Source: a virus. Taken from it: a DNA stretch of 49,086 nt. Positions 2,359 through 46,624 of this stretch are shown in pieces. The notes beneath the pieces were generated by a model, which was given only the letters and a program-made list of their open reading frames with translations, searched no databases and was not told where the DNA came from. The position numbers and the translations under genes are program-made. The stretch covers positions 1 through 49,086 of the IMG/VR virus record IMGVR_UViG_3300006735_000054. One strand, 5' to 3'. Every line of letters begins with the position of its first letter. The stretch's first letter is position 1.

Positions 2359-4725
2359 GTGGCAGATTACGACGGTCCAGAAAACCAAGAGTCGATAGCA
2401 GATTCAACCAAGCGTTTATTTGATTTATACAAGAGAAAAAGAGATGTCTGGGAAACTCAAGCTAGAGAAGACCAAGAATACAGACTTGGTAAACAATGGA
2501 CAACGGAACAGATTAAGGTACTAGAAGGCAGAGGTCAAGCCCCTGTTGTTGTTAATCGTATACATCCTGCTGTAGAAACAGCAAAAGCTTTACTAACTGC
2601 AAACAGACCTTCATTTAAAGTATCCCCTAGAGAAGATAGTGATACAAAAGTTGCTAATGTTCTCAATAATTTACTTACTTATATGTATGACCAATCAGAT
2701 GGTAGGACTCAAATAAGACAAGCTATTGATGATTATTATGTTACGGGATTAGGTTATTTACAAGTATATCAAGACCCTTTAAAAGACGATGGAAAGGGTG
2801 ATGTTTGTTTTAATAATGTAGATCCAATGGACGTCTATGTTGATCCTAATTCTAGAGATCCATTTTTTGATGATGCAGAAAATATTATTATATCTAGAAA
2901 CTTCACAAAAGAACAGGCCAAATCTTTATATCCCCAATATAAACAAGCAATTGATGCAGCCTCTAGTTCTTATGATAGTGATAGTATAATAACAGGTCGT
3001 AGCGACGATACAGGAGTAACATTTCCTGGAGATATTGATACATTAGCAGAAGGTGACCATGAATATGTAAGAGGTTATGAACGTTATTACAAAGTGCAAA
3101 TTAATATGTACAGGGTTCATGAGACATATACTGGCAAAGAATACCGATTTAATGAAGAAGAGTTTCAACAATACATTGGTCAAGAAGTAGGTGTTCTTAA
3201 TGGAAAAATCATAGAAGGTTCTGATAATATAAAGAAATTAGAAGAGCAGCAGTCTCAAATGAAACAAGAGATGCTTGATAAAAACCTTAAAATGATTGAA
3301 GAAGATATACATCGTATGTCAGAAGAACTTGAAGTTCAGTATATGGAACAAGAAAAGCAGTTTATGGAGCAAGTTCAAGTAGGCAATATGCTTCCTGACA
3401 GAATGGAATTAGAACTTGGCAATTTAAGAGAGGCTATAGATAAGCAAATCTCAGACGCTAAAGAGAATGCAATGATTCAAGCAGGACAAGTTGTAAATAT
3501 TCCAGGTATTGAAATCACATCTAAAGCTGGTTTAATAGCACAAAAGATGATTGAGGCAGTACCAGTTCAAATAAAGCAAGTAAAGCAATGCGTAGTAATG
3601 GGAGACACTCATATCTACTCAAGGATATTACCAACTAGTAATTATCCTATAGTACCAATTGTTAATCTTCACACTAGAACACCATATCCTATGTCAGATG
3701 TAAGAATGGTAAAAGGTTTACAAGATTATATAAACAAAACTAGGTCATTAATCATAGCTCATGCTACAACAGCAACTAATATGAAGGTTTTAGTTCCTTC
3801 TGGTTCTGTAGATATGCGTGAATTTGAAGAAAAATGGGCACAACCTGGTGTTGGTATTGAGGTAGATTTTGACTTGGGGCAACCAGTAGTTGCTAGTCCA
3901 GCTCCTCTTCCTAACGAGTTGTACAATAACGAGCAGACGGCCAAAAACGACATAGATCACCAGCTTGGACTCTACGAAATGATGATGGGTAACTCTCAGG
4001 CTGCCCCACAAACTTATAAAGCCACTATATCACTTGATGAATTTGGTCAAAGAAAGATTAAATCAAAACTAGCTGATATAGAAGGTTCTTTGCAAAGAGT
4101 AGCAAAAGTAGCTATTCAAATGATGCAAGAGTTATATCAAGAAGAAAAAATATTTAGAGTTGTTAACCCTAATAACTCATTAACAGAATTTGCAGTAAAT
4201 AAAAAGCTATATGATGACAAAACTAATGAAATCAAGATAGCAAACGATATTACCGTAGGCAAATATGATGTTGTATACGTATCAGGTTCGACACTTCCAA
4301 GTAATAGATATGCGGAACTCGAATTTTATATGGATGCATACAGTAAAGGTATTATCGATAAAGCAGAAGTGCTTAAGAAAACAGAAGTTTTCGATATGGA
4401 GGGCGTACTTAAAAGAACAGATACAATCGAACAACTTACTTCACAAGTTGAACAACTTGGTAAACAGCTCAAGAAGATGGGTGGAGACATGCAGACTCTT
4501 GAAAGAGAGAATGTTCACCTTAAACAGAAAGTTGAAGTCGAGAAGTTTAAATCTGATTTAGACCAAGTTAAGAACAAGTCTAAAATGGCTGGTACTTTAT
4601 TTGAAAAAAGATTAGATGACAACTTATCTATGTTAAGAAAAGACGCTCAAGATGCAATTAAAGACAAACAAAAAGACTCACCTTCTTCCGCATCTAAGAA
4701 GCAGTCTAAAAGTAAGAGGAAATAA
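2359..4725 (+). CDS. Portal protein, P22-type
   Basis: The dodecameric head-vertex portal through which DNA is packaged and ejected. The length of 788 residues and the N-terminal pattern (QAREDQEYRLGKQW, then a V-V-N-RIHP segment, then a YYVTGLGYLQVY strand and DPMDVYVDPNSRDPF) match large podoviral portals of the P22 group. A long charged coiled-coil insertion lies around residues 290-385, and the C-terminal 130 residues are another coiled coil ending in a basic, serine-rich tail. The start is GTG at 2359, with GGGGGT as ribosome binding site about 10 bases upstream. It lies directly between terminase and scaffold, which supports the call. Confidence 0.88.
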   Translation: MADYDGPENQESIADSTKRLFDLYKRKRDVWETQAREDQEYRLGKQWTTEQIKVLEGRGQAPVVVNRIHPAVETAKALLTANRPSFKVSPREDSDTKVANVLNNLLTYMYDQSDGRTQIRQAIDDYYVTGLGYLQVYQDPLKDDGKGDVCFNNVDPMDVYVDPNSRDPFFDDAENIIISRNFTKEQAKSLYPQYKQAIDAASSSYDSDSIITGRSDDTGVTFPGDIDTLAEGDHEYVRGYERYYKVQINMYRVHETYTGKEYRFNEEEFQQYIGQEVGVLNGKIIEGSDNIKKLEEQQSQMKQEMLDKNLKMIEEDIHRMSEELEVQYMEQEKQFMEQVQVGNMLPDRMELELGNLREAIDKQISDAKENAMIQAGQVVNIPGIEITSKAGLIAQKMIEAVPVQIKQVKQCVVMGDTHIYSRILPTSNYPIVPIVNLHTRTPYPMSDVRMVKGLQDYINKTRSLIIAHATTATNMKVLVPSGSVDMREFEEKWAQPGVGIEVDFDLGQPVVASPAPLPNELYNNEQTAKNDIDHQLGLYEMMMGNSQAAPQTYKATISLDEFGQRKIKSKLADIEGSLQRVAKVAIQMMQELYQEEKIFRVVNPNNSLTEFAVNKKLYDDKTNEIKIANDITVGKYDVVYVSGSTLPSNRYAELEFYMDAYSKGIIDKAEVLKKTEVFDMEGVLKRTDTIEQLTSQVEQLGKQLKKMGGDMQTLERENVHLKQKVEVEKFKSDLDQVKNKSKMAGTLFEKRLDDNLSMLRKDAQDAIKDKQKDSPSSASKKQSKSKRK

Positions 4726-21850: not shown

Positions 21851-22600
21851 ATGCTACTAGGCTTAGCAGCACAATATATGGCAAAACCCAAAGAGATAGA
21901 TCCACAAAAAGTTATGGACATGGGTACGTCTCCACATAATGCAGAACTATATCAACGTTCACAAGACATTATGGATATTAATTCTGACTTTAATCAGGAT
22001 CACTTTAGGAATATGAACTCTGCTGTTCAGGACAACACTTATACAGCAAACAGAATCAATAAAATGAATATGTTAAAGTCTGGTATGGGTGGACAAACAG
22101 GTTTATTAAATGCATCAGTAGCAGATAACCTACAAGATAGTAATGTTAGTCTTCAATCAAACTTTGAAAACTTTGTTAGAAACAACATGTCTACAAGCAA
22201 TAACCTATTAAGCCAAGTTACTACAAACGATATGCAAGTTAGAGACAATGCAGTATCTGCTTATGGTCAAAATATAAACAATAAAAACAACTGGATGGCC
22301 TCTATGGCTGGTAACGTTACTAAAATGGCAGGTATGCCTTTTGAAATGGCGTCAAAAGGAGCTGAAATGGCTCCTGCTGCAATGATGCTTTGTGATGCTA
22401 ATATGAAAGAGAATATTAAGAAGATTGGTACAGCTAAGACTAAAAGTGGTAAATCTGTAGGTATATATAATTACAACTACAAAGGTAGAAATAAAAAGAA
22501 GACTGGAATTATAGCTCAAGATGTTCAAAGAAATCATCCAAATTCAGTTAAAAAAGGTAAGAATGGAAAACTATACGTTAATGTATCGGAGTTATTTTAA
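21851..22600 (+). CDS. Virion protein with C-terminal S74 chaperone-like domain
   Basis: A 249-residue protein. Residues 1-175 are helical and Asn/Met-rich, resembling small internal virion proteins. Residues about 180-249 match the intramolecular chaperone of endosialidase type (peptidase S74): MKENIKKIGT, GIYNYNYKG, GIIAQDVQRNHPNSV and a terminal VNVSELF. In that family a Ser-Asp pair performs self-cleavage at the domain start; here the pair is Cys181-Asp182. It heads a unit of probable ejected proteins rather than being fused to a fibre, which is unusual. Confidence 0.7.
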   Translation: MLLGLAAQYMAKPKEIDPQKVMDMGTSPHNAELYQRSQDIMDINSDFNQDHFRNMNSAVQDNTYTANRINKMNMLKSGMGGQTGLLNASVADNLQDSNVSLQSNFENFVRNNMSTSNNLLSQVTTNDMQVRDNAVSAYGQNINNKNNWMASMAGNVTKMAGMPFEMASKGAEMAPAAMMLCDANMKENIKKIGTAKTKSGKSVGIYNYNYKGRNKKKTGIIAQDVQRNHPNSVKKGKNGKLYVNVSELF

Positions 22601-22992
22601 TGGGCAACTTTTTTAGCGGACTTCTTGGCCTTGGAATGAATAATGAAAATGCGGATATGCAAGCACAAAATGCTATCAATGAAACAAATGATATAACTAT
22701 AGATAGCATGGACCAGAGTGTAGAAGATTACAGTGAAGATACAGTTAAAACTCAACAAGAATTAATTGACCAGGGCTATAGTGTTGGTGATACAGGTGCT
22801 GATGGGCGAATGGGACCAAAGACAAGAATGGCAGTGGCTTTAAGAGATAAAGATAATGCTCGAACACTATTGGAGCAAGAACAACTTTCAAACAAAGAGG
22901 ACTTATTAAGCGAAGGGCGTACAGGAATGACTCAAGACGCAGAAGGCTGGAAAACACCAGTATATTCTTCACCGTTTAATAGATTCGGTTAA
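22600..22992 (+). CDS. Peptidoglycan-binding virion protein 1
   Basis: A 130-residue protein with a PG_binding_1 repeat at about residues 47-88 (QQELIDQGYSVGDTGADGRM, then GPKTRMAVAL). The hydrophobic start is FFSGLLGLGM; the remainder is acidic. It overlaps the S74-type gene by one base and is followed by a second protein with the same repeat. No catalytic cell-wall domain is attached, so it more likely anchors an ejected complex to the wall than digests it. Confidence 0.7.
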   Translation: MGNFFSGLLGLGMNNENADMQAQNAINETNDITIDSMDQSVEDYSEDTVKTQQELIDQGYSVGDTGADGRMGPKTRMAVALRDKDNARTLLEQEQLSNKEDLLSEGRTGMTQDAEGWKTPVYSSPFNRFG

Positions 22993-23002
22993 AGGAGATA
23001 TA

Positions 23003-23647
23003 ATGGCAGAAGATTTAAATTGGTTTCAAAGAGGAATTAAAAATATAACAGGCGCAGGTCCAGGTGAAGGTTACTTCCCTGACAATCAAGGATGGATACC
23101 AGATAAATGGACAGGTGGGGTACCAACTAAAGAAGCTTTAGGTAATGCACAAGAATTTATACAAGATAACCCAATGAGAGTTACTTCAGCAGTTTCTACT
23201 GCTGGTTTATCAGAACATCCTATGTTCGACGATTACTGGGCTGGTAAAGAAGGGTATATTCCTGATGCTTATACTGGTGGCGTTCCTACTAAACAAGCCT
23301 TAGGAAATTTAACAGGCATGGGAAGTGTTACTAATTTCGATATGAATGACCCAGAATCAGTCAAATCTTTGCAAAAAAGATTAGGTGTTAAAGCTGATGG
23401 AATGTTTGGTCCTAAAACTGAACAAGCCTATAGATTAGCTGTTGATGAAGAACGTAAAGCAGCAGATCAAGAGTCTTATGAATATGATTACAATCCTCAA
23501 GTTCAAGAGCAAAAGAAATTTTCACCATTTGGTGGTCTACTTAGAAAAGCTTATTCAGGCGTGGATAAAAAAATGTTTGGTGGAAAACTTCCAGGTGGAT
23601 ATAAAGATTCAAATGTTATGACAGCTGAGGAGTTTTATAACAAGTAA
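23003..23647 (+). CDS. Peptidoglycan-binding virion protein 2 with internal duplication
   Basis: A 214-residue protein. Two related segments lie near the N-terminus: GWIPDKWTGGVPTKEALGNA (about residues 29-48) and GYIPDAYTGGVPTKQALGNL (about 86-105). A PG_binding_1 repeat follows (SVKSLQKRLGVKADGMFGPK, about 119-138). The preceding ribosome binding site is AAAGGAG. It ends one base into the next gene. It likely acts with its neighbour in wall contact during DNA ejection. Confidence 0.65.
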   Translation: MAEDLNWFQRGIKNITGAGPGEGYFPDNQGWIPDKWTGGVPTKEALGNAQEFIQDNPMRVTSAVSTAGLSEHPMFDDYWAGKEGYIPDAYTGGVPTKQALGNLTGMGSVTNFDMNDPESVKSLQKRLGVKADGMFGPKTEQAYRLAVDEERKAADQESYEYDYNPQVQEQKKFSPFGGLLRKAYSGVDKKMFGGKLPGGYKDSNVMTAEEFYNK

Positions 23648-25817: not shown

Positions 25818-28800
25818 ATGGCGGAGCAAGATAGGTTTGACGAATTAACGGAGTTTAAGCCTTTTTATGATAAGCAAACTACAGAAAGACTTCTGAATGC
25901 TTATAAATTTAAACCTCATACATTTAAGCCTGAGTTAGTATCTCAGCTTAAAGATCATGCAGTTCATCATAAATTAGAAGTACCAGAGCCTCCTACAGGA
26001 AGTCCTAGAGATAGTGACTTTAATCTTATGCGTGGTATCAAGCAAATGGGACAAGGTTTTGTTTCTGGCTTTACTACATTTAACGTAGGCGAACCAACTG
26101 ATAATGAATATGAACGTATAATGCGTTCTTTAGGTTCTCTTGGTGGTTTCTTAGGTTATATACCTTCTGCTCCTTTTAAAGCAATGGGTGCAAAACAACT
26201 AGCTAATATGGCTAGAGCACTTAAAGGTAATTCTGTTCCATTATATCTTTCTAAAAAAGCTACTGAAAAAGTAGGTCCCGTTGTTGCTAAGACTTTAGAA
26301 ACATCTAAAGCAGCTAAAAATGATTCATTTAAAACAGCACTTGATTTTCTAACTACTGATAATGCTAAACATGTAGCCGAAGGTGCATTTAACCTTGGTC
26401 TTGCTAGTAGTATTGGTTCTTGGCAGTTAGGTGTTAATGAAATGCTTAAATCAGGGTTACATGGTGCAGTAACTGGTGGTGCGTTTAGAGGATTCGCAAA
26501 TCTAATAAACAAAGGGGGGATACCTAAACTTGATCAAGAGACAGGCAGATATGTATACACAGCTTCACAGCAAGAAGACAGACTCGTACGTGCTGTCGCG
26601 TCATCGCTCTATGATGGCCTTCAATCAACGTATCGAGGAGAAACGACACCAGAACAAATATATTCATACCTCTTAGGTGCATATTTTGGTGCTAATGAAA
26701 CTACGGCAGGCCAGGCAAGAGCTATGTCTTTTGTTGGTAAAGTTGAAAAAAGAGCTCAAACTAATGCTAAAGAACTTAAAAGATTAGACAAAGATGGTAA
26801 TCCATATGATAAAGATTTAGCAGTATATGACCCTAGATTAGAACCTGGTTGGGATGATTTACCAAAAGATGTTCAAGAATCAGTAATGCATACTGTTGCA
26901 ATGAGACATGGTACATTTGCTGCTCAGGCTGCAATGGCAGGGGAAACATTAGAAGGTATTAAAAAAGCAGTTGATACTGATTTAGCTATTAATGAGGCTA
27001 CAGATGCGGTAAGAGAATCTCAGATAGCTGAAGAGATGACTAAGATTTCTAAAGATGTAGAGAACCCTGATAGCGTTACACCAGAGTTTATGAAGAAAAG
27101 TAAGGATAAAATATTCCTTACAGAGGGTCGTTCTAGAATACTTAAAGCAGAAGATGGAGAGTCTTATCCATTAGCAGTAGATCCTAAAGAAGACAACGTT
27201 ATCAAATTACCATTAAAAGGTATGAACGATGCTAATCTAGAGATTAATGCTAAACTTATTAATGATTCTTTAAAACAAATAGGTGATGACGCTAGAAAAG
27301 TAGTTATACCTAAAGATGTAATGAATAAGTTAGATGATAATGCTCCTGAAACTGCTCAACATTTAAGAAAGAAGTTGGCTGATATAGCGATAGCTAGAAG
27401 TAAAGCAGTAGACAATTTAGTTGATAAAGGTGCTATAGAAAAGAAATCTGAAGCTAATGAATCATTAGATGACTTTGATATAGGACATACTGCAGAAGTA
27501 GAATTAGTTAAAAAGTCTCAAGCCTTTATTAATAAGTACCTTAAATCAGCATTCGACAACTTAACAGATCCTGAAGAAATTGGTGCTCTTAAAAAAGAAT
27601 ATAAAGATAAGCTAATCAATGTATTAGGTGGCAATACTCAGTTAAAACAGTTTAAAGGCTTTATGGAAGATGTTAATAAGAACTTTCCAGAAGTGTTTAG
27701 TAAAAAAGATTTAAGTGATTTGGCTGAAGGAGACTTAAGGCAGTTATTTATAAGACAAGTACAACAAAGACCTAGTCCTCATTATTCATTACAATTCTTT
27801 GGTGGTGGAGATGATAGAACATCATTAATTAAAGTAGGCCCTACTGGACTCAATGCTAAAAATAATCTTAAAGGCGTTGGTGATAGTGTTAAAACAATAG
27901 AGCTAGCATATGAAGATATGATGTATCAGTTGACTGGTCAATTACCTAAAGATAGAGCATATATGGTGTTAGACCATGCTATTACATCTAGAGGTAAAAA
28001 GATTGTTGAAATTGAATTAAAGAAATTAAACAGAAAAGAAAATTATGTAGGTTACTCTGGAAAGAATGCTAAAACTGCTCAAGATACTGCTAATAGGCTT
28101 ATAGGACAAGGTTTAAAATCTGCAGACCAAGATGGTTATTATTATAATGGTGGCAAGGGAGATAGTGGAAAAATGTATTTCTTTAAGCATCATCCAGATG
28201 TAGACAAACTAACGTCTGACAATATTGCGAAAGAAATAACTAAAGCTAAGAAAGTATTTAAAAAATATGACAAGAATGCTGCTAAAGCTTATGACTCTTT
28301 AAGGTCAGAGTTTGTTAAGAAGTATAAAGACAGAAAAGTTGGTAAAAACACATTTAGATCTTTAGGTAGTGCAGATGAAGCTGGTAGATACTTTGATAAA
28401 GCGTTCTTATCTAACATTAAATGGGACGAAACTATATATAGCATCAATCCTAAAAACTTTGAAAAGGGTAAAAACTTTATAGATTGGCTTGCAGAAAACT
28501 CATCTATTAGAGATTCTAAAGGTTTTAATAAAAGAAACCAAATATGGATGACTGATGGTTTTGAGCTAGATGCGGACTATTTTAAAGAGGTTTATGATGA
28601 TATGGGGGGTAGTATACCTGTAGAAAATAATAAGCTAAAATATAGATTATTCGCTGATCCTGGTAAAAATGCTGATTTAACATCTAATTCACCTGCAAGA
28701 TTATATACTGAAATAACAGATGGTGAAATCTTAATGGAACAGACTACTTTAGATGCATTAAATAAAAGTTGGGGACTTCCAGAGTCTGGTCAAAATAAAA

Positions 28801-31800
28801 CATTTATTGTAGATAGTAGCCCTCAAGATGGTGCTTTTCTTGGAAAGATGATGTTCCATAAAGCTAGTGAAGAAGCTAGTAAATGGATGAGAGATAATAA
28901 CGTACACATGTTAGTTCCTGAATCTGCAGCTAAAGAATTTGGTTCTAGAAAAATAGGAGAACTAAATGTAAATAAAGACTTATCTGTAGACTTTGATTAT
29001 AAGGGTGGTTCTGATTATGAGATGAATCTTACATCACTTAAAGGGTCATTATCTGAAAAGCAAACTCAGCATATGTTAGACCCACAACAAATTCCTAAAC
29101 AGCTTATGTCAAGCTTGATTCCACATGCATCTAAAGAATTAGACCAGGAAACTATAGACGAGTTCTTTGATGAGATTATCGGGGAGAGATATATTGGTGA
29201 AGATGTATGGAATGATAGACTGCAAAAAGCACTTGATACAGAAATCATAGGTGATAACGAACAGATAAATATATTAGATAATATAGATAAGCTGGGTTTA
29301 AAGAATATTATAGACGCTATTAAAACAACTGAGCATCCAGATTTTGTATCTAAACTATATCAAAGAGTATTAAGGTCTAATGTAGAAAACTTAACTAGAG
29401 AATATGAGTCTGGTGAAGTATCTAAAGCAGAGTATATGGAAGCCGTTGCAGAAGCTAAAAACTTTACATCTGGTATTAACAGAATGATGGAAATATACCC
29501 TGACCTTGCAGTTTTCCTACATAAAGACGTAAGAAACTACTTACAGGCATCTATGAGAAACTTTGTAGTAAATAAGGTTATTAGGCCTAAATGGGACTAT
29601 AGTATATCTACAAGAATGAGAGGTATAGATCCTTGGTTAAGACAACAATTTGATTTCTTTGATTTAGATATGACGAAAGGTCAAAAAGGTGTTGTTGCTA
29701 ATCGTAAAAGATTAATGGATGAATTTGGTGTAGAAAATCCTGACCAATTATTTATGCTTGATGATATGTATAAAAAAGTAAGCTACGACGTATCCGATTT
29801 ATTGATTGGAGAAAAAAGACTTACTTTAGGTGAATTATGGGACAACTATAGAGATAAAGCATCAGTAAAAGAGTTCTTTAAAACTATATCATTACGTGTT
29901 CCTATGGACTCTATATCTGGTGCACATGAACTTGCTTTTGCGGGATTTACAGGCATTAAAGGTCATGGTGGTGTGTTTCACCCTAGAACTATGAGGGCAT
30001 TAGGTGGTGCAGACCTTGATGGAGATAAAGCATTTGTACTATTTGGAATGAAACAAAAGTACAGAGATATGTATCATAAAAATAAATATGAATACAGGGA
30101 CGATAATTTACAGATTAAGGACAATAAAGAAGCTCCTATATCTGATGAAGGTAAAGCAATATTAAAAGGGTTTTTAAATCCTAAAGACAAACATGAATCC
30201 AGAATAATTGACTTAATAAAGAATGGCAAAGAAGTAACATTCCAAGACTTATTAACATTTACTAATGATGGTGGAACATTTACAGACCAGGCATATAAAT
30301 CATTTATAGGAAAGTTTACACCAGAAGGTAGAAAAGATATAGCAGATAAGGCAGTTGATGGTCGTGATCAATTAGGTCCTGCTGTTATAAGTAAACAAAT
30401 ACTTAACTCAGTATATACAGCTGCAGGTAAAAATGGTCCTAAAAGATATTGGCTAGGTAAAAAGCATATAACGCCTGAACAATATGAAAAATTATCTGAT
30501 GCTCTTAAAAAGAAATACAGAGCAGACAATAGAGAGTCTTTATCAGTAAGTCCTTGGGGAGATGATAAGACATATGAAATATTCTATGAACCTAGAACTA
30601 ATAAAAAAGAATTAGACTTTTCTAGAGAATTATTTAGAGCAGAGATTGGTTTTGGTTCTGACCCATTAGACGAACTTGGATTAACAGGTGGTGCAAAATT
30701 CTTTGATGCAGGCTGGCATTCATTATTTAAAATTGATTGGAATGGTAATCAAAAAGCATTACAGTCAAAATTTAGTCCAAACTTTCATGCTAGACAGGGC
30801 TTGTTTCAAATATATCAAGGTTTTAATAAAGGTTATTTTTCTAAAAATTGGGACCAAAATAGACGTTGGTATGCTCATGAGATAAAAGACTTTTCTAATA
30901 AGATACACCTATTAAATGAAGATCAACGTGGTGATATGTTAGCTAGAATGGTAGAGATATTAGATCCTATTGATTATAGTGATGATATATCCGCTAGAGT
31001 TGATTTAGATTTATTAAACCAAAGATATGATGACTTTAAAGACATTTCTTTAGAGCTTAGAGCTATTAATGATTCATATGAAGGCGTAGAAGGTGGTTTA
31101 TTGGGAAGATTTAGCTTTGATAGTGTTAAGAGTCCAGTTACTACAAAAGTTATCGCAGAAAAGCTATATAATAGAGATAACAGAAAAGTAATGATTGCAA
31201 ATCCTGCAGTATATAAAGATTTCTTTAAAGGATTAGGTGGTCAATGGGATAAAAAAGCGTTTCAAGCTTATTCTTTCCCTTGGGAACATCAAAAATGGTT
31301 TAAATCAGAAGACTTGTATATGCAAGCTGTAGAAAATTCTATGACATATAGAAGTAATATGGTTGATAGAGTTTATAGACAGGGTACAGAGTTCATGCAA
31401 AACGATGCAATGGATAGAGCCTCTGCTCAACAATTAATTAGAGCTATTACTTTAGCTAGGAATGCTGGCGTAAATGATGCTTTTATACATCATATGGCTA
31501 GATTTGTAGATAAAACTAAAGAAATAGATAGAGCACAAAAATTAAAATCAGCTGAATCTAGTGTAGAAGATTATTTAACAGTTACTAATGTTAGTCCAGA
31601 AGGTAAGGTTACATTATCTAGAATATTTAATGTAGACCCAGATATAATGCCTTTTATGAATCAAGAAAGAATTGAAAATAGAATAGCTAATTATAAAACT
31701 AAAAATAAATGGGGTATGGAAAAGGGTGAAGAGGGTAGACCTTTAAGTCCTGAAGAGTCTTACTTATTTGACACTATGATGATGTCTACATATCATAGAG

Positions 31801-34800
31801 GTGATAATTTAGCTAAATACAGTGATCTAAAAGGATTGTCTGCTGAATTAAAGGATATAATTAATCCGTTGCTTAGAGAAATAGAACGTAGTGGTAGTTC
31901 TACATTATTTGAAAAGACAGGGTTAAACGCTGCCTGGACTAGTGATAGAGCTATTAGAGATTTCTTAAAAGTATATTCAGAGCAATTTGATTATAAAACC
32001 AATGAAAAACTTGATATAGATGTTGACCAGGCATTAGACAGTGATTTAAAAGACCCTGATATTGCTAAAGTTGCGCCTAAAGATATATTTGAGTCAGATG
32101 TCGAGGCTATAATACAGGCTAGAGAGCGTTATAAAGAAATGGGTAAAACTAATTTATCAGACTTTGAACGTAAAATGGTCGATGAATTAATTGGGCATGT
32201 TAATTACTATGGTAAAAGTATAGCATCAGCTAAAAACTTAAATCAAATAACTAGAGCATTATTAAGAAAAAACTTTGACGCCCTTGGGGTTGAGGATTAT
32301 AGAGTATTAAACAATTTCTTTCAGGAAATGAGAACTGGTACTTATTGGTCTCAAAGAGGTGCTATTACAAAAGACAACGTTGTTGAACTTGCAAAGCGTC
32401 ACTGGATGTTATTTCCTAAAACGACATCTAGAGAAATGATGGTTAAAGACTTTACTATATTTGAAGAGTCAGGAAGATTTCAAAACTATAAAGGTGAATG
32501 GCGTCAAGGAGATATAGGGACACCTACTCATACTATAGAAAATATACAATTCGTACTTGGTAAAGTTGAAGCTATGGCTCTTAAAACTGATGAAGACGAA
32601 AAAAATAGTTTAGAAGTACTATTAAGAGATAAAACAGGATACGAATCATTACCTGAAGGTATAGGGCAGCATATTGGTGAAGTTGTCACTGCAGAACGTG
32701 CATTAAGGTCTTTTAAAAATAAAAACAAGCATAAGAAAGATAATCAGTACTATATAAAACTTAAAGAATATAAGGCATCATTGGCTGAAGCTAAGGATAT
32801 TGCTAAATGGGACAAGATACAGAAGCAAAGGTTTAGTGTAAATAAAGAAGGTGGAACGTATCCAGAGACTGGTAGACAAATTGCTAACAATATTAATGAC
32901 GCTTTAACACAAAGAGCTATAGAAACATATAGTTGGATTGCTGGTAAGCATTATAAGTATGACCCAGAACTTGGTAAGCATATAAGAGATAATAGCGTAG
33001 AAGACCCAATATTAGAATTTGTACAAAAGAATGCTAAAGGTGAAATAAAATATTGGAACAATAATGAAATGTTACCAATAATCGATAGTAATAAGTTTGT
33101 TAAGTCTATATTAAAAAAGATGAAAGAAGGTCAACCTATTGGTTGGGGCCTTGGTCTTGATAATCTTAGAAAAATATCTAGGTCTATACAGATTGAAAAT
33201 CTTCAAGAGCAAGTTAGGATGACCGAAGATGTCGCTAGTAAAAATCTATACAAAGAATTAATAAGTAATCTATCTTTAGCTAAATATCATAGAACAGGTC
33301 AGTTTAGAGCCAATGATTACCATCCTCAGTTTATACAAGATAAGAAAGTTGCTAGACGTGCAATTGAGGCAGCTATAAAAGAAGTTGAAGCTCGACCAGG
33401 GATGTCAGACAAAGATAAAAAGGTTGAAATTGGTAAACTTATTTTACGATATAAATCTATGGCTGGAGAATGGATTGTAAATGATGTACATGAAAACGAT
33501 TTAATTAATGGTGCATTACAAGAAATAGCGGAAGGACGTAAAGGTGAAAGCTTTAGATACCTCGAAAAAGATCCTGTTGCTGGGAATATGTTATCTCGTT
33601 CTACTGATTTACCTGGTTGGTCGAGGGATTTAGGTTCTTGGGACATATATCAAAAGAATTTAATAGATACATATCATAGGCAAATAGGCCAGATTGTATC
33701 TAAAAAGATGTTGCAAGAGTTTAATAGAAAAGCAATAGACACATGGAACAGTCCTGATCAAGTTGTTGCGTGGAATAATTATATATACGATTATATTACA
33801 CGAGCTATGGGCTTTCCTAGTAAAGTACCAGAAGCGTGGATGGACGGACCTATGGGTGATTTAATGAAGATTAAAGGTACGCCTTATAGTTGGTTTGCAG
33901 ATAATCATGTTAAAGACAAGATTAATAAGATTAGAAAAGCTATTGGTATGAAAGATAGCGAAATGGTTCCTGATAATTTACAAGGTGTAGATGAAATGGA
34001 TATAAGACATTGGTCTAACCTAGAAGCTAAATATCAAATGGCTACACTACTTGCTCACCCTAAATCTGCTGCAGGTAATATATTTGGTGGTACTATACAT
34101 ACTATACAGGCTACTGGATGGAAAAACTGGCGTAATGCTAGAAATGCTGAATATTGGAGAACTCAAATAGCTGGTAAAGCATCTAAGTTTGAGACTAAAA
34201 AAGATATTGAAGAATGGGCGATCAGTCATGGTGTTGTTCCTAACTTTGTATTATATGAGGCAGGATTAAATCCAAACTTTAAATCTGGTAAATATAGAAG
34301 ATTTTTAAGAGATGTAGAGAAACTATTAAAGAAAGACCCAATGGTTAAAGATGAAGGTCTTATTAGTTTAGCTAAAAAGCATCAAATCGATGAAGCTGCT
34401 TTCCAAAAGGCTGCTTGGTTTATGAGGTATCCTGAAAGAGCATTACGTAGAGATGCATTTGCTGCAGGTTACTTGCAAGCTAGAGAATTATATGGTCATG
34501 CCAATATGGATTTAAATGAACCATTCTTAATTGAAATGGCTAAAAAGACTGTAACAGCTACACAATTCTTATATAGTGCTCCATATAGACCAGCATTCAG
34601 TGCTACAGCTCTTGGTAAGGTTATGACAAGATTCCAAACATGGGCTTGGAACTCTGTAAGATTTAGAAATGATGTAAACAGAGAAGCTAGATTACATGGT
34701 TATCGTCCAGGTACTATGGAATATGAAAGATTTAAACGACAAACGATCAGTGATATGTTTGTACTTGGTATGTCAAATGTATTTGCATACTCATTATTTG

Positions 34801-35156
34801 AAACAGCTATGCCTCAGCCTTATTCTTGGTTTCAAGATACAGCTGATTGGTTGTTTGGTAATGAACAAGAAAGAGATAGAGCCTTTTTCGGCAATTGGCC
34901 AACTGCAGTTGCTCCGCTCCAAATGGTTACTCCGCCAGGTTTGCGGTTGGCCCCTGCCGTCTTTAGCTCTATGGTAAATAATGATTATAGTAGACTAACT
35001 GATTATTACCTGTGGACTATGTTTCCTTTTGGCAGGATTGCTAGAGATACTAAAGGTATAATCGATAATCCATTCTACACTATAGAGAAAATGTCAGGGA
35101 TACCATATATACAAATGTCTAGAGAAATGAAAAAGGATTTAACACCAGATGAGTAG
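25818..35156 (+). CDS. Giant virion protein containing a two-barrel RNA polymerase
   Basis: A 3,112-residue protein, the longest in the window. Residues 968-1040 carry DG (968-969), LGKMMFHK with K1010 and K1015, and PESAAKEF with K1039, matching the first double-psi barrel of two-barrel RNA polymerases. A segment from R1360 (RVPMDSISGAHELAFAGF), then FHP, ends in GGADLDGDKAFVLF, whose Asp1399, Asp1401 and Asp1403 match the Mg-binding DxDGD loop of cellular beta' and RNA-dependent polymerases. LGPAVISKQILNSVYTAA follows at about 1518. The N-terminal 180 residues contain Gly-rich hydrophobic stretches; about residue 2940 onwards has FQTWAWNSVRF and hydrophobic helices. It is co-transcribed with ejected proteins, so it is probably packaged in the virion and transcribes early genes after entry. 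Polymerase activity is inferred. Confidence 0.75.
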   Translation: MAEQDRFDELTEFKPFYDKQTTERLLNAYKFKPHTFKPELVSQLKDHAVHHKLEVPEPPTGSPRDSDFNLMRGIKQMGQGFVSGFTTFNVGEPTDNEYERIMRSLGSLGGFLGYIPSAPFKAMGAKQLANMARALKGNSVPLYLSKKATEKVGPVVAKTLETSKAAKNDSFKTALDFLTTDNAKHVAEGAFNLGLASSIGSWQLGVNEMLKSGLHGAVTGGAFRGFANLINKGGIPKLDQETGRYVYTASQQEDRLVRAVASSLYDGLQSTYRGETTPEQIYSYLLGAYFGANETTAGQARAMSFVGKVEKRAQTNAKELKRLDKDGNPYDKDLAVYDPRLEPGWDDLPKDVQESVMHTVAMRHGTFAAQAAMAGETLEGIKKAVDTDLAINEATDAVRESQIAEEMTKISKDVENPDSVTPEFMKKSKDKIFLTEGRSRILKAEDGESYPLAVDPKEDNVIKLPLKGMNDANLEINAKLINDSLKQIGDDARKVVIPKDVMNKLDDNAPETAQHLRKKLADIAIARSKAVDNLVDKGAIEKKSEANESLDDFDIGHTAEVELVKKSQAFINKYLKSAFDNLTDPEEIGALKKEYKDKLINVLGGNTQLKQFKGFMEDVNKNFPEVFSKKDLSDLAEGDLRQLFIRQVQQRPSPHYSLQFFGGGDDRTSLIKVGPTGLNAKNNLKGVGDSVKTIELAYEDMMYQLTGQLPKDRAYMVLDHAITSRGKKIVEIELKKLNRKENYVGYSGKNAKTAQDTANRLIGQGLKSADQDGYYYNGGKGDSGKMYFFKHHPDVDKLTSDNIAKEITKAKKVFKKYDKNAAKAYDSLRSEFVKKYKDRKVGKNTFRSLGSADEAGRYFDKAFLSNIKWDETIYSINPKNFEKGKNFIDWLAENSSIRDSKGFNKRNQIWMTDGFELDADYFKEVYDDMGGSIPVENNKLKYRLFADPGKNADLTSNSPARLYTEITDGEILMEQTTLDALNKSWGLPESGQNKTFIVDSSPQDGAFLGKMMFHKASEEASKWMRDNNVHMLVPESAAKEFGSRKIGELNVNKDLSVDFDYKGGSDYEMNLTSLKGSLSEKQTQHMLDPQQIPKQLMSSLIPHASKELDQETIDEFFDEIIGERYIGEDVWNDRLQKALDTEIIGDNEQINILDNIDKLGLKNIIDAIKTTEHPDFVSKLYQRVLRSNVENLTREYESGEVSKAEYMEAVAEAKNFTSGINRMMEIYPDLAVFLHKDVRNYLQASMRNFVVNKVIRPKWDYSISTRMRGIDPWLRQQFDFFDLDMTKGQKGVVANRKRLMDEFGVENPDQLFMLDDMYKKVSYDVSDLLIGEKRLTLGELWDNYRDKASVKEFFKTISLRVPMDSISGAHELAFAGFTGIKGHGGVFHPRTMRALGGADLDGDKAFVLFGMKQKYRDMYHKNKYEYRDDNLQIKDNKEAPISDEGKAILKGFLNPKDKHESRIIDLIKNGKEVTFQDLLTFTNDGGTFTDQAYKSFIGKFTPEGRKDIADKAVDGRDQLGPAVISKQILNSVYTAAGKNGPKRYWLGKKHITPEQYEKLSDALKKKYRADNRESLSVSPWGDDKTYEIFYEPRTNKKELDFSRELFRAEIGFGSDPLDELGLTGGAKFFDAGWHSLFKIDWNGNQKALQSKFSPNFHARQGLFQIYQGFNKGYFSKNWDQNRRWYAHEIKDFSNKIHLLNEDQRGDMLARMVEILDPIDYSDDISARVDLDLLNQRYDDFKDISLELRAINDSYEGVEGGLLGRFSFDSVKSPVTTKVIAEKLYNRDNRKVMIANPAVYKDFFKGLGGQWDKKAFQAYSFPWEHQKWFKSEDLYMQAVENSMTYRSNMVDRVYRQGTEFMQNDAMDRASAQQLIRAITLARNAGVNDAFIHHMARFVDKTKEIDRAQKLKSAESSVEDYLTVTNVSPEGKVTLSRIFNVDPDIMPFMNQERIENRIANYKTKNKWGMEKGEEGRPLSPEESYLFDTMMMSTYHRGDNLAKYSDLKGLSAELKDIINPLLREIERSGSSTLFEKTGLNAAWTSDRAIRDFLKVYSEQFDYKTNEKLDIDVDQALDSDLKDPDIAKVAPKDIFESDVEAIIQARERYKEMGKTNLSDFERKMVDELIGHVNYYGKSIASAKNLNQITRALLRKNFDALGVEDYRVLNNFFQEMRTGTYWSQRGAITKDNVVELAKRHWMLFPKTTSREMMVKDFTIFEESGRFQNYKGEWRQGDIGTPTHTIENIQFVLGKVEAMALKTDEDEKNSLEVLLRDKTGYESLPEGIGQHIGEVVTAERALRSFKNKNKHKKDNQYYIKLKEYKASLAEAKDIAKWDKIQKQRFSVNKEGGTYPETGRQIANNINDALTQRAIETYSWIAGKHYKYDPELGKHIRDNSVEDPILEFVQKNAKGEIKYWNNNEMLPIIDSNKFVKSILKKMKEGQPIGWGLGLDNLRKISRSIQIENLQEQVRMTEDVASKNLYKELISNLSLAKYHRTGQFRANDYHPQFIQDKKVARRAIEAAIKEVEARPGMSDKDKKVEIGKLILRYKSMAGEWIVNDVHENDLINGALQEIAEGRKGESFRYLEKDPVAGNMLSRSTDLPGWSRDLGSWDIYQKNLIDTYHRQIGQIVSKKMLQEFNRKAIDTWNSPDQVVAWNNYIYDYITRAMGFPSKVPEAWMDGPMGDLMKIKGTPYSWFADNHVKDKINKIRKAIGMKDSEMVPDNLQGVDEMDIRHWSNLEAKYQMATLLAHPKSAAGNIFGGTIHTIQATGWKNWRNARNAEYWRTQIAGKASKFETKKDIEEWAISHGVVPNFVLYEAGLNPNFKSGKYRRFLRDVEKLLKKDPMVKDEGLISLAKKHQIDEAAFQKAAWFMRYPERALRRDAFAAGYLQARELYGHANMDLNEPFLIEMAKKTVTATQFLYSAPYRPAFSATALGKVMTRFQTWAWNSVRFRNDVNREARLHGYRPGTMEYERFKRQTISDMFVLGMSNVFAYSLFETAMPQPYSWFQDTADWLFGNEQERDRAFFGNWPTAVAPLQMVTPPGLRLAPAVFSSMVNNDYSRLTDYYLWTMFPFGRIARDTKGIIDNPFYTIEKMSGIPYIQMSREMKKDLTPDE

Positions 35157-36807
35157 TGCGTTAATAAGACAGGCATCAGCAATAGCTGCTAAGTATATAA
35201 AGAAAAGTCCTATTTCTAAAGCTATCTATAGCCAAACTACTAAGATACCTAGTAATAGTAATATAAGGTTAGAAGGTTTTTATGGTTCAGGTTCTGAAAA
35301 ACTAAATGCATTTTTAACAGGGATAAAAGATAGTACAGGCACTACAGCTATGAACTATATAAATCCAGGTAGGATACGTAGTAACTTTAATTTCAGAGAG
35401 TTTGGTATGGGACATACTACTACTCAAAACATTAAAAAGAATTGGGATATTCAAAACACCATTATAAATGACCCTAAAAGTTGGATTGAAGGTAAGGTTG
35501 GGAAAAAGCATAAATATTTCTTTAAAAGAGGTCCAAAAGCTGAAGCTGGTGAATGGGAATGGAGAACCTTTACCCCAGAGTCCAAACAAAAATTAAGTCA
35601 AATACAAAAAAATACTTGGGGTGAATTTTCTAAACAGTATGCTCTTAATCAAAGAGCTGGTATAACCCCAAAGAATACTGCATTGCATGACCTTGTAGAG
35701 AAGCATATTGGCGAAGTTATAAACCCAGAAGATATAATGAAGCTTGGTATTAGTAAAAATATGAAGAAAAACTTATTAAATACCTGGGCATTAGGTAAAG
35801 ACCCTAAGATTATGCATCTTCATAATAAAAGTCTTAATTCTTTACATAGAGATATACAATATGATGTTAATTTCAGAGATTTAGTTGAGATAATACAGAC
35901 TGATGCACGTCTAAGCAAAGGCGTTAGCCCTAAAGTTGGTGCTTTAAGGATAAAGCAAGGCTTCAGGAAGTTTAAGGATCATGATGAGAAATTGCGTGGC
36001 ACAACCACATATGAAAGGCTTAGAAACAAAATAAAAAGATTTAGGGAAAAAGATAGCCGTAAATCTAGAGACTTATCTAATAGCGTTCAGATTGTTGACG
36101 ATAAAGTTGTAGTAAGCTATAGCCCCACATTTAAATCTAATGAATATACAGGTGGTATTAATGGTAAAGTAATGATTGACCCTAGAGATCCAAATCATGC
36201 TTATTTGCTGCCATCTGACGCTTTTGACTTATATGGTAAAAAGTTTGATTGGCTTTCTAAGAATGTTTTTGGAATGAAGCACGAGCTTTTAAACGTTATG
36301 GGCGTAAAAAAAATACCACTACCTGACCATAGAAGTTGGAAAACTAAAAAATGGTTAAAAGAATATAAAGCTCATAAGTCTGTTAATACAGATAAGGGTA
36401 GGCAAGATATATTGGATAAAGCGAGAGGCTATACGCCTGAAGTTAAAGATGCTTTAAGAAAAGGCTATACAGAAGAAGATTTAATGAGACATGGAGTTAT
36501 GAAACCTCAAGAAACTGTAATACCTGTTGACCAACAATTTAGATATTTAAGAACTACCAAAGGTTATGGGGAAGATGTTCCTAAAACATTAAACGAATTA
36601 AATACAACTCCAATGCCTATTAGTAGATATGCAAAACAGGGTATTACAACAGGCCTATTTGTTACAGGTGCAGGTACAGGTTTATATGCAGGAGCTAAAG
36701 CTTTAAGTAGTAATATTAATAACAATCAAATGGTTAATGAAGATGATGAAGAATACGATAGCTATCACGCTCAAGCCAATACTAAATTACACCGATTCAA
36801 AGAGTAA
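35149..36807 (+). CDS. 552-residue partner of the giant protein, unknown
   Basis: It overlaps the giant gene by 8 bases, so the two are translationally coupled. It is a basic, mainly helical protein with a beta section in the middle (VQIVDDKVVVSYSPTF, then GKVMIDPRDPNHAYLLPSDA) and one hydrophobic segment near the C-terminus (GITTGLFVTGAGTGLYAGAK, about residues 500-519) followed by an acidic tail. No family is recognised. It is probably another ejected protein, perhaps an accessory subunit or membrane anchor for the giant protein. Confidence 0.55.
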   Translation: MSSALIRQASAIAAKYIKKSPISKAIYSQTTKIPSNSNIRLEGFYGSGSEKLNAFLTGIKDSTGTTAMNYINPGRIRSNFNFREFGMGHTTTQNIKKNWDIQNTIINDPKSWIEGKVGKKHKYFFKRGPKAEAGEWEWRTFTPESKQKLSQIQKNTWGEFSKQYALNQRAGITPKNTALHDLVEKHIGEVINPEDIMKLGISKNMKKNLLNTWALGKDPKIMHLHNKSLNSLHRDIQYDVNFRDLVEIIQTDARLSKGVSPKVGALRIKQGFRKFKDHDEKLRGTTTYERLRNKIKRFREKDSRKSRDLSNSVQIVDDKVVVSYSPTFKSNEYTGGINGKVMIDPRDPNHAYLLPSDAFDLYGKKFDWLSKNVFGMKHELLNVMGVKKIPLPDHRSWKTKKWLKEYKAHKSVNTDKGRQDILDKARGYTPEVKDALRKGYTEEDLMRHGVMKPQETVIPVDQQFRYLRTTKGYGEDVPKTLNELNTTPMPISRYAKQGITTGLFVTGAGTGLYAGAKALSSNINNNQMVNEDDEEYDSYHAQANTKLHRFKE

Positions 36808-36962: not shown

Positions 36963-37658
36963 ATGTCTTTTGAGCACGTAATCCCATTTAAAGAACAATT
37001 TTTAACAGCTGATCACGGCTGGTCACCCAATACCAAAGGTATATACGAAAAAAGTCTTAATCGTTATGCACTTGATGGTTTTCCTGATACTAACTATAGA
37101 GCTATGATTATAAGATGCCTAAATAGGCTCAGTAAATGGTGTTTAGAGGAAGGATTAACTGATATTCATAAGCCAATGGTAGGTGGTAATAAATTTACCC
37201 GTAAAACCCGTGTTTTCTCTGATGATGAATTAAAAAAAATACTAACACTTATAACCCCACTACATTTTCAAGAAATGGTGAGGTTTATATATTATACTGG
37301 TGCTAGGCAATGTGAGGTACGTTCTTATGACTTCGAAGATCACGGCCATTATATCAAAGCTAAAAGTAAGGGAGGGGATAGGCTTATTAGAACAAATCGC
37401 CAGGCTCAAGAAGTTTTAGAAAGAGGTGAGAAGTGGAAATATACTGCCTGCACAGCAAGTCGTGCTTTTAGAGATAATATGAAAAGGTTGGGGATTAAAG
37501 GCACTTTACATGATCTACGTCGTACTTTTGGATTACGTATGATAAAAAAAATAGGTATATATGAAACATCTAAGCTTTTAGGGCATGCATCAGTTCAAAC
37601 AACTGAAAATCATTATGCTCCTTTATTAGCTATAGATGTTGAGGATTTTGTTTTATAA
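36963..37658 (+). CDS. int: Tyrosine recombinase (integrase)
   Basis: A 231-residue enzyme that catalyses site-specific integration. All catalytic elements of the family are visible: first Arg in YYTGARQCEVR, Lys in KAKSKGGDR, HDLRRTF (His-x-x-Arg), GHASVQTTENHY with the second His and the nucleophile Tyr. It has a short SAM-like N-terminal domain and no large arm-binding domain, so it is compact. It lies directly beside the tRNA-Arg half-site. ATG 36963 has AGGAG six bases upstream. Confidence 0.92.
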   Translation: MSFEHVIPFKEQFLTADHGWSPNTKGIYEKSLNRYALDGFPDTNYRAMIIRCLNRLSKWCLEEGLTDIHKPMVGGNKFTRKTRVFSDDELKKILTLITPLHFQEMVRFIYYTGARQCEVRSYDFEDHGHYIKAKSKGGDRLIRTNRQAQEVLERGEKWKYTACTASRAFRDNMKRLGIKGTLHDLRRTFGLRMIKKIGIYETSKLLGHASVQTTENHYAPLLAIDVEDFVL

Positions 37659-40577: not shown

Positions 40578-41063
40578 TTAACTCTCACCGAAGCTATCCC
40601 CCTTTGCAAGTTTGCGTAATACGTAATTCCTCATGTTGTCTGGTTTCTTTTTTAGAAAGTTTAACAGAGAAATATATTCCTTATCTGTAAGGTGTCCTTT
40701 TCTAGTATTACACCTTTTACATATTATGGTGAGATTTCCAGGAGTTGAATCACCACCCAAAGAAAGAGGGTACATATGGTCGCATACAATATTAGATACC
40801 AGCAATACATCAGGGCAATACCTACACTTTTTCCCATAAAATCGTAAAAAAAGTTTTCTGATTTGTTCCAAAGTGATATCAAATACGACTTCATATTCCT
40901 TACTCCTTTTCTTTAATGATGATTTTAACGTAGAGGTCTTTTTCATAAGCCTATGAAAGATTTTTTTGGCGTGTGTGCCGTGGTGTTTTTGTAACACTTT
41001 TGTGAATCGATCTTCCCAATATCTTATCTTTCCTCTATGTTTTATATTCTTATTATAAGCCAC
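40578..41063 (-). CDS. HNH endonuclease
   Basis: A 161-residue protein. The basic N-terminal helices are followed by the HNH core: CRYC, CDHMYPLSLGGDS (D-H pair and P-S-x-GG), then GNLTIICKRCNTRKGH with the Asn, the second Cys pair and the final His. All metal-binding and catalytic positions appear intact. GTG start at 41063 with GGAGGG six bases upstream. It could be a free-standing homing nuclease or a packaging or host-DNA nuclease; its place far from terminase makes the former likelier. Confidence 0.85.
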   Translation of the reverse strand: MAYNKNIKHRGKIRYWEDRFTKVLQKHHGTHAKKIFHRLMKKTSTLKSSLKKRSKEYEVVFDITLEQIRKLFLRFYGKKCRYCPDVLLVSNIVCDHMYPLSLGGDSTPGNLTIICKRCNTRKGHLTDKEYISLLNFLKKKPDNMRNYVLRKLAKGDSFGES

Positions 41064-45099: not shown

Positions 45100-45783
45100 C
45101 TACGCTGCAGTATTTTCTATTTTTTCTGAGGGTTTTACGAGATGTTCTCTACGCAAACTCACAGGACCTAACGACCCCCAAATGTACGCATAATACAATC
45201 TATTTTGCAAGACATTAAATGCCTGTGCTAGGCCAAATGATGCTGCTAATGAGCCACAAAAGATTGTATGTTTTGCTGTACACGGATCGTCAGCGATAGA
45301 AGAGGAGGGGACATAGGATTCCATGAAGAAATCGGACTCACGGGTCACAGTTATTATCTCATAGCCTAATGCTCCCATCCTCATATCTATTAAAAACTCT
45401 CTGTCTGGATTTTGAACCCATTGTTCATAAACATATTTTCTACATTCCATATTATCAGGTGTAAGAAATACTTTATTTTCTAATGGTAATCCAGTTCGCC
45501 AGAATACTGGTTTTGTTTTTACAGATACTTTCTTGTTTAGATTCTTAAGAACAGTTTCTGCAGCTGCTACTTTTGGCATATTTAAGAACTTCTCTGGCCA
45601 TGATGTTGTGGATAAATTATGCTCCTCTAACATATCAGGGTCCCAGACGGTTATTTCTTTAAATCCCATTATTGCAGCGTTCTGGAGTAATGCAGAGCCA
45701 ATACCACCAGCTCCGATTACTGTAATCTTATCTAATCTTGATTGATCGATAAGGTCTTTATTTCGTAAGTAACGGTCTGCCAT
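45100..45783 (-). CDS. E1-like (ThiF-type) adenylyltransferase
   Basis: ATP-dependent activator of ubiquitin-like proteins. The nucleotide-binding GAGGIG (numbered from ATG 45789: residues 26-31), Asp50 and Asp52 in VWDPD, N58 in EEHNLS, K73, and the TPDNMECR segment with D112 and R117 follow the ThiF/E1 pattern. Candidate catalytic cysteines are C170 (DDPCTAK) and C178. There are no paired CxxC zinc motifs. I choose ATG 45783 because AGGAG is nine bases upstream; ATG 45789 has it only three bases away. It overlaps the JAB gene by about 26 bases, and no thiamine or molybdopterin gene is nearby. Confidence 0.85.
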   Translation of the reverse strand: MADRYLRNKDLIDQSRLDKITVIGAGGIGSALLQNAAIMGFKEITVWDPDMLEEHNLSTTSWPEKFLNMPKVAAAETVLKNLNKKVSVKTKPVFWRTGLPLENKVFLTPDNMECRKYVYEQWVQNPDREFLIDMRMGALGYEIITVTRESDFFMESYVPSSSIADDPCTAKHTIFCGSLAASFGLAQAFNVLQNRLYYAYIWGSLGPVSLRREHLVKPSEKIENTAA

Positions 45784-46624
45784 ATTCATCTACTCCTAGT
45801 TTCTTTAGCTTTTTGTCTCTGGTATTTTTTGTTATTTTGCCTTTTTCATATTCTAACTGAATATCATCAAATTCATCAAATAATTGCCAGTCGTACATTG
45901 TTTCTTGTTGTTGACTATTTAAACCATATGAACCATTATAACTAAGCCAATCTATGTGCTCTTCATAGCGTTCTTGTTTGCTTTGTTTTGGTTGGTTTTT
46001 AGGTTGACTTGTTCCAAACAACGTTGCTTGACCTGCATTATTATATTTGCCTCTTTGCCAAAGATTAATACTTGTTGTTTCAGGCTTTTTATTCTTCTTA
46101 ATAAAATCAGCTTGAGTCTTCCATTCTTTATCATATGTAGTATTTTCTTCAACTTCTATGTCTTCAAATTCTACAATATGTATTTGTCCAAACTGATCGG
46201 GGTAAGATACGCCGCAATGTAGCTCTTTACCTGCTTTTGTAGATACTACTAATGAATAATAAAAGTTTTCGTTAGCACCATCTTCGCATTGTTGTATATC
46301 TGTTCCAGAAAAGAATGCACCCATACCATGATGTGAATGTATGTTTCCTTGTACCCAAGATTTGCCTATCTCAGGGTATTTTTTCCTTAATTTAGAATAG
46401 ATTTTCATTAAATCTTCACCGTCCCAGTCAGTGTTACTTGCTGTACCTAAATCGAGAGGGTGGAAGTATTCTAATGTTACTATACTTGGAAATCCATTTT
46501 CATCTTTTACATGGGAATACCAGGCTGGGCCAGACCATTCAACAGACTTAAAGCATTTCAGTAAATAACGTACCTTGTCCATCTGCGTCGATGATATGAC
46601 TAATTTCGGGCTTGTTAAGCTCAT
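45758..46624 (-). CDS. JAB/MPN (JAMM) metalloprotease
   Basis: Zinc isopeptidase-type domain that in related systems trims or removes ubiquitin-like proteins. The JAMM motif is complete: Glu29 in SVEWSG, then NIHSHHGMGAFFSGTD with His96, His98, Ser106 and Asp109. Residues 1-150 form this domain; about 140 further residues are charged and unrecognised. ATG 46624 has AAGGAGG seven bases upstream, which supports it although it lies 77 bases inside the E2-like gene. It is encoded between E2-like and E1-like genes. Confidence 0.88.
   Translation of the reverse strand: MSLTSPKLVISSTQMDKVRYLLKCFKSVEWSGPAWYSHVKDENGFPSIVTLEYFHPLDLGTASNTDWDGEDLMKIYSKLRKKYPEIGKSWVQGNIHSHHGMGAFFSGTDIQQCEDGANENFYYSLVVSTKAGKELHCGVSYPDQFGQIHIVEFEDIEVEENTTYDKEWKTQADFIKKNKKPETTSINLWQRGKYNNAGQATLFGTSQPKNQPKQSKQERYEEHIDWLSYNGSYGLNSQQQETMYDWQLFDEFDDIQLEYEKGKITKNTRDKKLKKLGVDEYGRPLLTK

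Follow-up and report, generated by a model that had tools for sequence, protein, structure and literature searches.

The window analysed here, a linear IMG/VR virus record of 49,086 bases, is dominated by one giant gene (25818-35156, plus strand). This gene starts with ATG, encodes a protein of 3,112 aa and occupies roughly a fifth of the genome. Also on the plus strand are genes for a terminase, a P22-type portal (2359..4725; Pfam PF16510, E 3.5e-65), a major head protein and fibre-like and peptidoglycan-binding proteins, all in front of the giant gene, and behind it a gene for a 552-aa protein and an integrase gene. The minus strand carries genes for a DnaB-like helicase, a Sak4-like annealing protein, an HNH endonuclease and others. 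The giant gene stands at the end of the late structural module and apart from the replication genes. In all 25 long contigs compared, the P22-type portal gene lies on the same strand as the giant gene. Just upstream of the latter are the two genes with weak peptidoglycan-binding matches (22600..23647, plus strand), and at its other end the gene for the 552-aa protein (35149..36807, plus strand; homologues in 6 of 80 loci) overlaps its stop codon.

A short protein with a Peptidase_S74 (chaperone of endosialidase) domain is encoded after two large fibre-like proteins (21851-22600, plus strand). Just downstream of the polymerase region lies the tyrosine integrase gene (36963-37658, plus strand). 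Among the 25 related long contigs only the window has it, with close copies in L039 and L011, and some members of the family may be temperate. Of 80 related loci, 60 have a homologue of the HNH endonuclease gene (40578-41063, minus strand), which lies towards the polymerase end of the genome. Within the early module a ThiF/E1-like gene (PF00899, E 2.5e-16) overlaps a gene for a JAB-like protease, which matches PF14464 just below the cut-off (45100-46624 for the two, minus strand). The best PADLOC matches of the ThiF/E1-like gene are E1-E2 systems. In other words, this is a phage-carried E1 plus JAB pair. The direct repeats of the early module yielded no convincing shared promoter motif, and the early region has about as many sigma-70-like sites as chance would give (55, with 47.3 +/- 6.5 expected).

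Layout and relatives of the giant protein

Three modules can be distinguished within the 3,112 residues: an N-terminal module, a two-barrel RNA polymerase core and a helical C-terminal module. The coordinates of their coding segments all refer to the plus strand. The N-terminal module (residues 1-350; 25818..26867) is rich in glycine and moderately conserved, with invariant glycines at G194, G205, G216, G220, G287 and G291 of the homologue alignments. It is followed by a variable linker (residues 351-689; 26868..27884) in which no aligned position reaches at least 97% conservation. The polymerase core was modelled as residues 690-1800 (27885..31217). The sequence-only reading had looked for the fold in about residues 850-1650, and the catalytic core is now corrected to about 1,100 of the 3,112 residues, in the middle third of the protein. 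The C-terminal module (residues 1913-3112; 31554..35153) is mostly helical in a moderately confident model with a pLDDT of 72.7.

Relatives are numerous in uncultivated virus sequences. A search of IMG/VR with a 63-residue block around the DLDGD motif returned 150 relatives, 80 of which were fetched, and another search, started from a divergent relative, returned 101, overlapping the first set. The full-length homologues span 2,782-3,591 residues. The homologue at L083:5285-10114 has a core about 500 residues longer than those of the other homologues (1,610 vs ~1,100 residues), which suggests that it carries an insertion. The six contigs measured for base composition have a GC content of 33-35%. 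From the metagenome identifiers and general knowledge, we take the phage group to be marine.

A translated search of 50,697 GenBank phage records, with the window protein and two divergent relatives as queries, gave no match. Bacterial and archaeal genomes gave 593 pattern matches, none of them confirmed as a family member. Sequence searches of Pfam, PHROGs, NCBIfam and the PDB with the giant protein turned up no polymerase, and its sequence profile likewise finds nothing in the PDB. A literature search found no paper describing this polymerase family, the supplementary tables of a published two-barrel survey lying outside its reach.

Catalytic motifs and predicted fold of the core

The first suggestion of a polymerase came from short motifs, and all of those named in the sequence-only reading were located where it had put them: GGADLDGD at 1396-1403, R1360-V-P1362, FHP at 1387, K1010, and PESAAK1039 starting at 1034. 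How well are they kept? The conservation set consisted of 53 non-redundant full-length homologues with cores 27-61% identical to that of the window protein. The prediction that the three aspartates and the two lysines would be invariant is borne out, because D1399, D1401, D1403, K1010 and K1039 do not vary in any of the 53, and neither do R1360, P1362, G1005 and G1397. S1036, H1388 and G1402 are kept in 52 of 53. Spacing is kept as well. The distance from R1360 to D1399 is 39 residues in every homologue, and K1010 and K1039 are 29 residues apart in all homologues except one. Two elements stood only in part. In the proposed Asp-Gly element Gly1005 is invariant, but Asp1004 occurs in 2 of 53 homologues, so the upstream block is better written GxxxGK...SxxK(xxGxR). 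In FHP, the histidine is conserved, whereas P1389 is found in only 34 of 53. Judged from these alignments, motif conservation rules out chance occurrence.

The acidic motif was also tallied across the fetched motif matches, counting overlapping contigs more than once. It reads GGADLDGD 149 times and GGADLDAD twice, and the three aspartates never vary. The Gly to Ala change between the second and third aspartates is found in L044, whose homologue is otherwise intact, and in one further match. Near-invariant positions peak at residues 1341-1425 (35 per 100). There is a second peak in the C-terminal 500 residues (15 per 100), and most other segments have 2-5 per 100.

These motifs can be placed on two probable double-psi beta-barrels (DPBBs). 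The first, DPBB-B, is a probable beta-like barrel at residues ~930-1060 (28605..28997) that contains the GxxxGK1010 and SxxK1039 elements (Lys1010 codon 28845..28847; Lys1039 codon 28932..28934). Its borders are inferred from predicted strands. The second, DPBB-A, is a probable beta'-like barrel at residues ~1353-1412 (29874..30053) with R-x-P, GH and GGADLDGD, and it is the most conserved block of the protein. Within it, D1399-L-D1401-G-D1403 (30012..30026) is the predicted Mg2+-binding catalytic triad. Further downstream, the model has two helices (residues 1502-1516 and 1519-1537; 30321..30428 for the whole 1502-1537 segment) with invariant R1505 and R1516, which are candidates for the bridge helix/trigger-loop region.

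An AlphaFold2 model of residues 690-1800, built from the 53 homologues with no templates, has a pLDDT of 89.9 and a pTM of 0.87. A Foldseek search of the whole PDB gave a sole match at E <= 0.001, namely 6VR4 (E 1.7e-9, probability 1.00), which is the DNA-dependent RNA polymerase packaged in the virions of crAss-like phage phi14:2. Each of the next 49 PDB matches listed is an RNA polymerase or a complex that includes one, mostly bacterial, with phage gp64-type polymerases (8F72, 8F5M) and bacterial beta' chains coming directly after 6VR4. Foldseek TM-scores are modest (0.39/0.22) over a long gapped whole-chain alignment, because multi-domain proteins were aligned whole. In the viral library BFVD, the two closest proteins are unnamed (45% and 22% identical) and probably belong to the same polymerase family. 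They are followed by named crAss-like phage proteins, and the BFVD matches include phi14:2 and P23-45 proteins. The structural prediction of the sequence-only reading has therefore held up: the model is confident, and both its best PDB match and its more distant BFVD matches are crAss-like two-barrel polymerases. In the model, one polypeptide carries the two-barrel RNA polymerase core fold, and the fold match to 6VR4 together with the invariant aspartates and lysines supports reading the protein as a two-barrel RNA polymerase of crAss-like fold.

Relation to known virion polymerases

Few phage groups are known to carry a two-barrel polymerase in the virion, namely the crAss-like phages, the jumbo phages, and P23-45 with its relatives. 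The phi14:2 enzyme is a natural point of comparison. This 2,180-aa homologue (KC821624 gp077; gp66 of Drobysheva) has been found in virions by mass spectrometry, and a profile was made for it by adding 15 IMG/VR relatives. Profile comparison places residues 1352-1410 of the giant protein on gp66 1314-1372 without gaps, with DLDGDK on DFDIDK, R1360-V-P on R1322-I-P, and D1399 on D1361 of D1361-F-D-I-D. The distance from R-x-P to the first aspartate is the same 39 residues in gp66 (R1322-D1361). The profile-profile E-value is weak (0.03-0.12) and covers only the DxDxD block, and in a whole-length comparison two other segments scored slightly above that block. When the DxDxD half was compared, the score in the catalytic register was 26.7, against a maximum of 23.0 in 100 column shuffles and 13.4 for the reversed profile.

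The likeness may extend beyond the aspartates. Relatives of gp66 keep K1027 and K1065, and both families share the conserved order K...K...K...RxP...DxDxD...G(K/R). Read from sequence, the residues common to both would be K1010/K1027, K1039/K1065, R1360/R1322, D1399/D1361 and G1515-R1516/G1543-K1544, where the lysine equivalences are set by residue order and predicted strands. At the candidate bridge/trigger region the two profiles do not align; the conserved gp66 residues to compare there are G1543-K1544. Both proteins are single chains with DxDxD and paired upstream lysines, encoded among virion proteins. They also differ. Identity outside the DxDxD block is at background level, the motif is DLDGD here and DFDID there, and the giant protein has its core in the middle of a longer chain with an unrelated C-terminal module. 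Membership of the crAss-like gp66 family was rejected, the profile-profile E-value not being significant alone. Membership of Crassvirales was rejected also. The contigs are 40-56 kb long, and the window, a linear record, may lack part of its genome. With genomes of about 50 kb, these phages are unlike the crAss-like phages with about 100 kb, and they have a P22-type portal. The crAss likeness, then, is one of fold and mechanism, not of Crassvirales membership.

Another parallel is found in P23-45, where the tail protein gp96, a tail-tape fusion, carries an active virion RNA polymerase (PMC10770324). Here too the polymerase is embedded in a giant protein, probably of the particle, and the P23-45 motif is DFDGD. 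However, P23-45 is a long-tailed phage with its polymerase at the N-terminus of the tape measure, and profile comparison with gp96 gave no detectable sequence match. A tape-measure-fused polymerase of the P23-45 type was rejected for this reason and because of the core position at 690-1800 and the P22-type portal.

What of polymerases with a different fold? The N4 virion RNA polymerase has a T7-like fold within a giant injected protein of a short-tailed phage. The presumed strategy, in which a short-tailed phage ejects a giant polymerase, is the same, but the fold is unrelated. The T7-like polymerase domain PF00940 was found in none of the 25 contigs (the window phage and 24 relatives), whereas T7 itself, the positive control, was found at E 9.9e-110, and a T7/N4-type polymerase was accordingly rejected as an alternative. 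Finally, the conserved C-terminus of the giant protein (residues 2857-2947; 34386..34658) has a weak match, common to 33 of 40 homologues, to the PLxRFG family of giant phage proteins (NF032893), whose definition includes no polymerase. Membership was rejected, since the score of 21.4 bits is far below the curated cut-off of 100. The C-terminal module also has weak fold matches to polyvalent proteins and to a "protein inside capsid" of a Marinomonas phage. A role of the modelled C-terminal module in packaging or ejection is a lead.

Proposed role and competing explanations

Very probably, the giant protein is a single-chain two-barrel DNA-dependent RNA polymerase that is made late, packaged, ejected and used to transcribe the early module. 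D1399, D1401 and D1403 of one barrel would bind the catalytic magnesium ions, and K1010 and K1039 of the other barrel would face them and contact the RNA and the incoming nucleotide. Produced late, like the proteins of the particle, the giant protein would be packaged by means of its flanking modules and ejected with the DNA through the portal and tail. While the genome is entering, its core would transcribe the early (replication) module, which has the opposite orientation; for P23-45, too, it has been proposed that transcription goes along with DNA entry (PMC10770324). Catalysis, packaging, ejection, early-gene transcription and promoter choice are all inferred here. The position and strand of the gene speak for a virion protein, and with the gene context they make packaging and ejection the most likely fate of the enzyme.

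Could such a polymerase be used inside the cell and never ejected, for example to transcribe middle or late genes? There is a precedent in gp64, the non-virion polymerase of P23-45 (PMC10770324). Yet the giant gene ends the structural module on the portal strand, distant from the replication genes, and its large fused modules, one with the weak PLxRFG match, are needless for a purely cytoplasmic polymerase. In addition, no second polymerase of the T7/N4 type was found that could make the early transcripts, although the host enzyme could serve. An enzyme confined to the cytoplasm is thus unlikely.

Two further explanations are each very improbable. One is that the two-barrel fold does not polymerize in trans and belongs to an ejection protein whose role is structural or DNA-translocating, gripping the DNA and pulling it in. 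Size and position would fit, and the roles may overlap, given that transcription is proposed to occur during DNA entry in P23-45 (PMC10770324). But none of the catalytic aspartates and neither of the lysines varies at 27-61% identity while most of the protein drifts, and a role in structure alone would not preserve them. The other is a different two-barrel enzyme, either an RNA-dependent RNA polymerase like QDE-1 or a DNA polymerase like PolD. Both share the fold, and "RNA dependent RNA polymerase" is among the BFVD names (rank 26). However, neither QDE-1 nor PolD is among the best 50 PDB matches, of which the first is DNA-dependent and the others listed are bacterial or phage RNA polymerases. 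That the motifs are a coincidence in an ordinary large structural or polyvalent protein, which the failure to match a polymerase by sequence in Pfam, PHROG or the PDB might favour, is scarcely credible, being contradicted by the confident fold match, the strict invariance and the in-register profile alignment.

If the giant protein is a packaged and ejected polymerase, what is new about it? Two-barrel polymerases inside giant virion proteins were already known, whereas the family, the phage group and the architecture appear undescribed in the literature searched. On balance, we favour a separate two-barrel clade, widespread in uncultivated marine phages of about 50 kb with P22-type portals, with a mid-protein core that passes through a short tail and early transcription coupled to DNA entry. 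This adds a large marine group with ~50-kb genomes that is absent from the cultured phages searched, Pfam and PHROGs, and it extends the range of sequences known for the superfamily to which cellular RNA polymerase belongs. The core of about 1,100 residues, with its confident model and seven named invariant residues, is directly testable by expression and assay. Because the core fold is related to the crAss virion polymerase and the gene lies among particle genes, these phages probably inject their own transcription enzyme, which implies that infection can start without reliance on host transcription.
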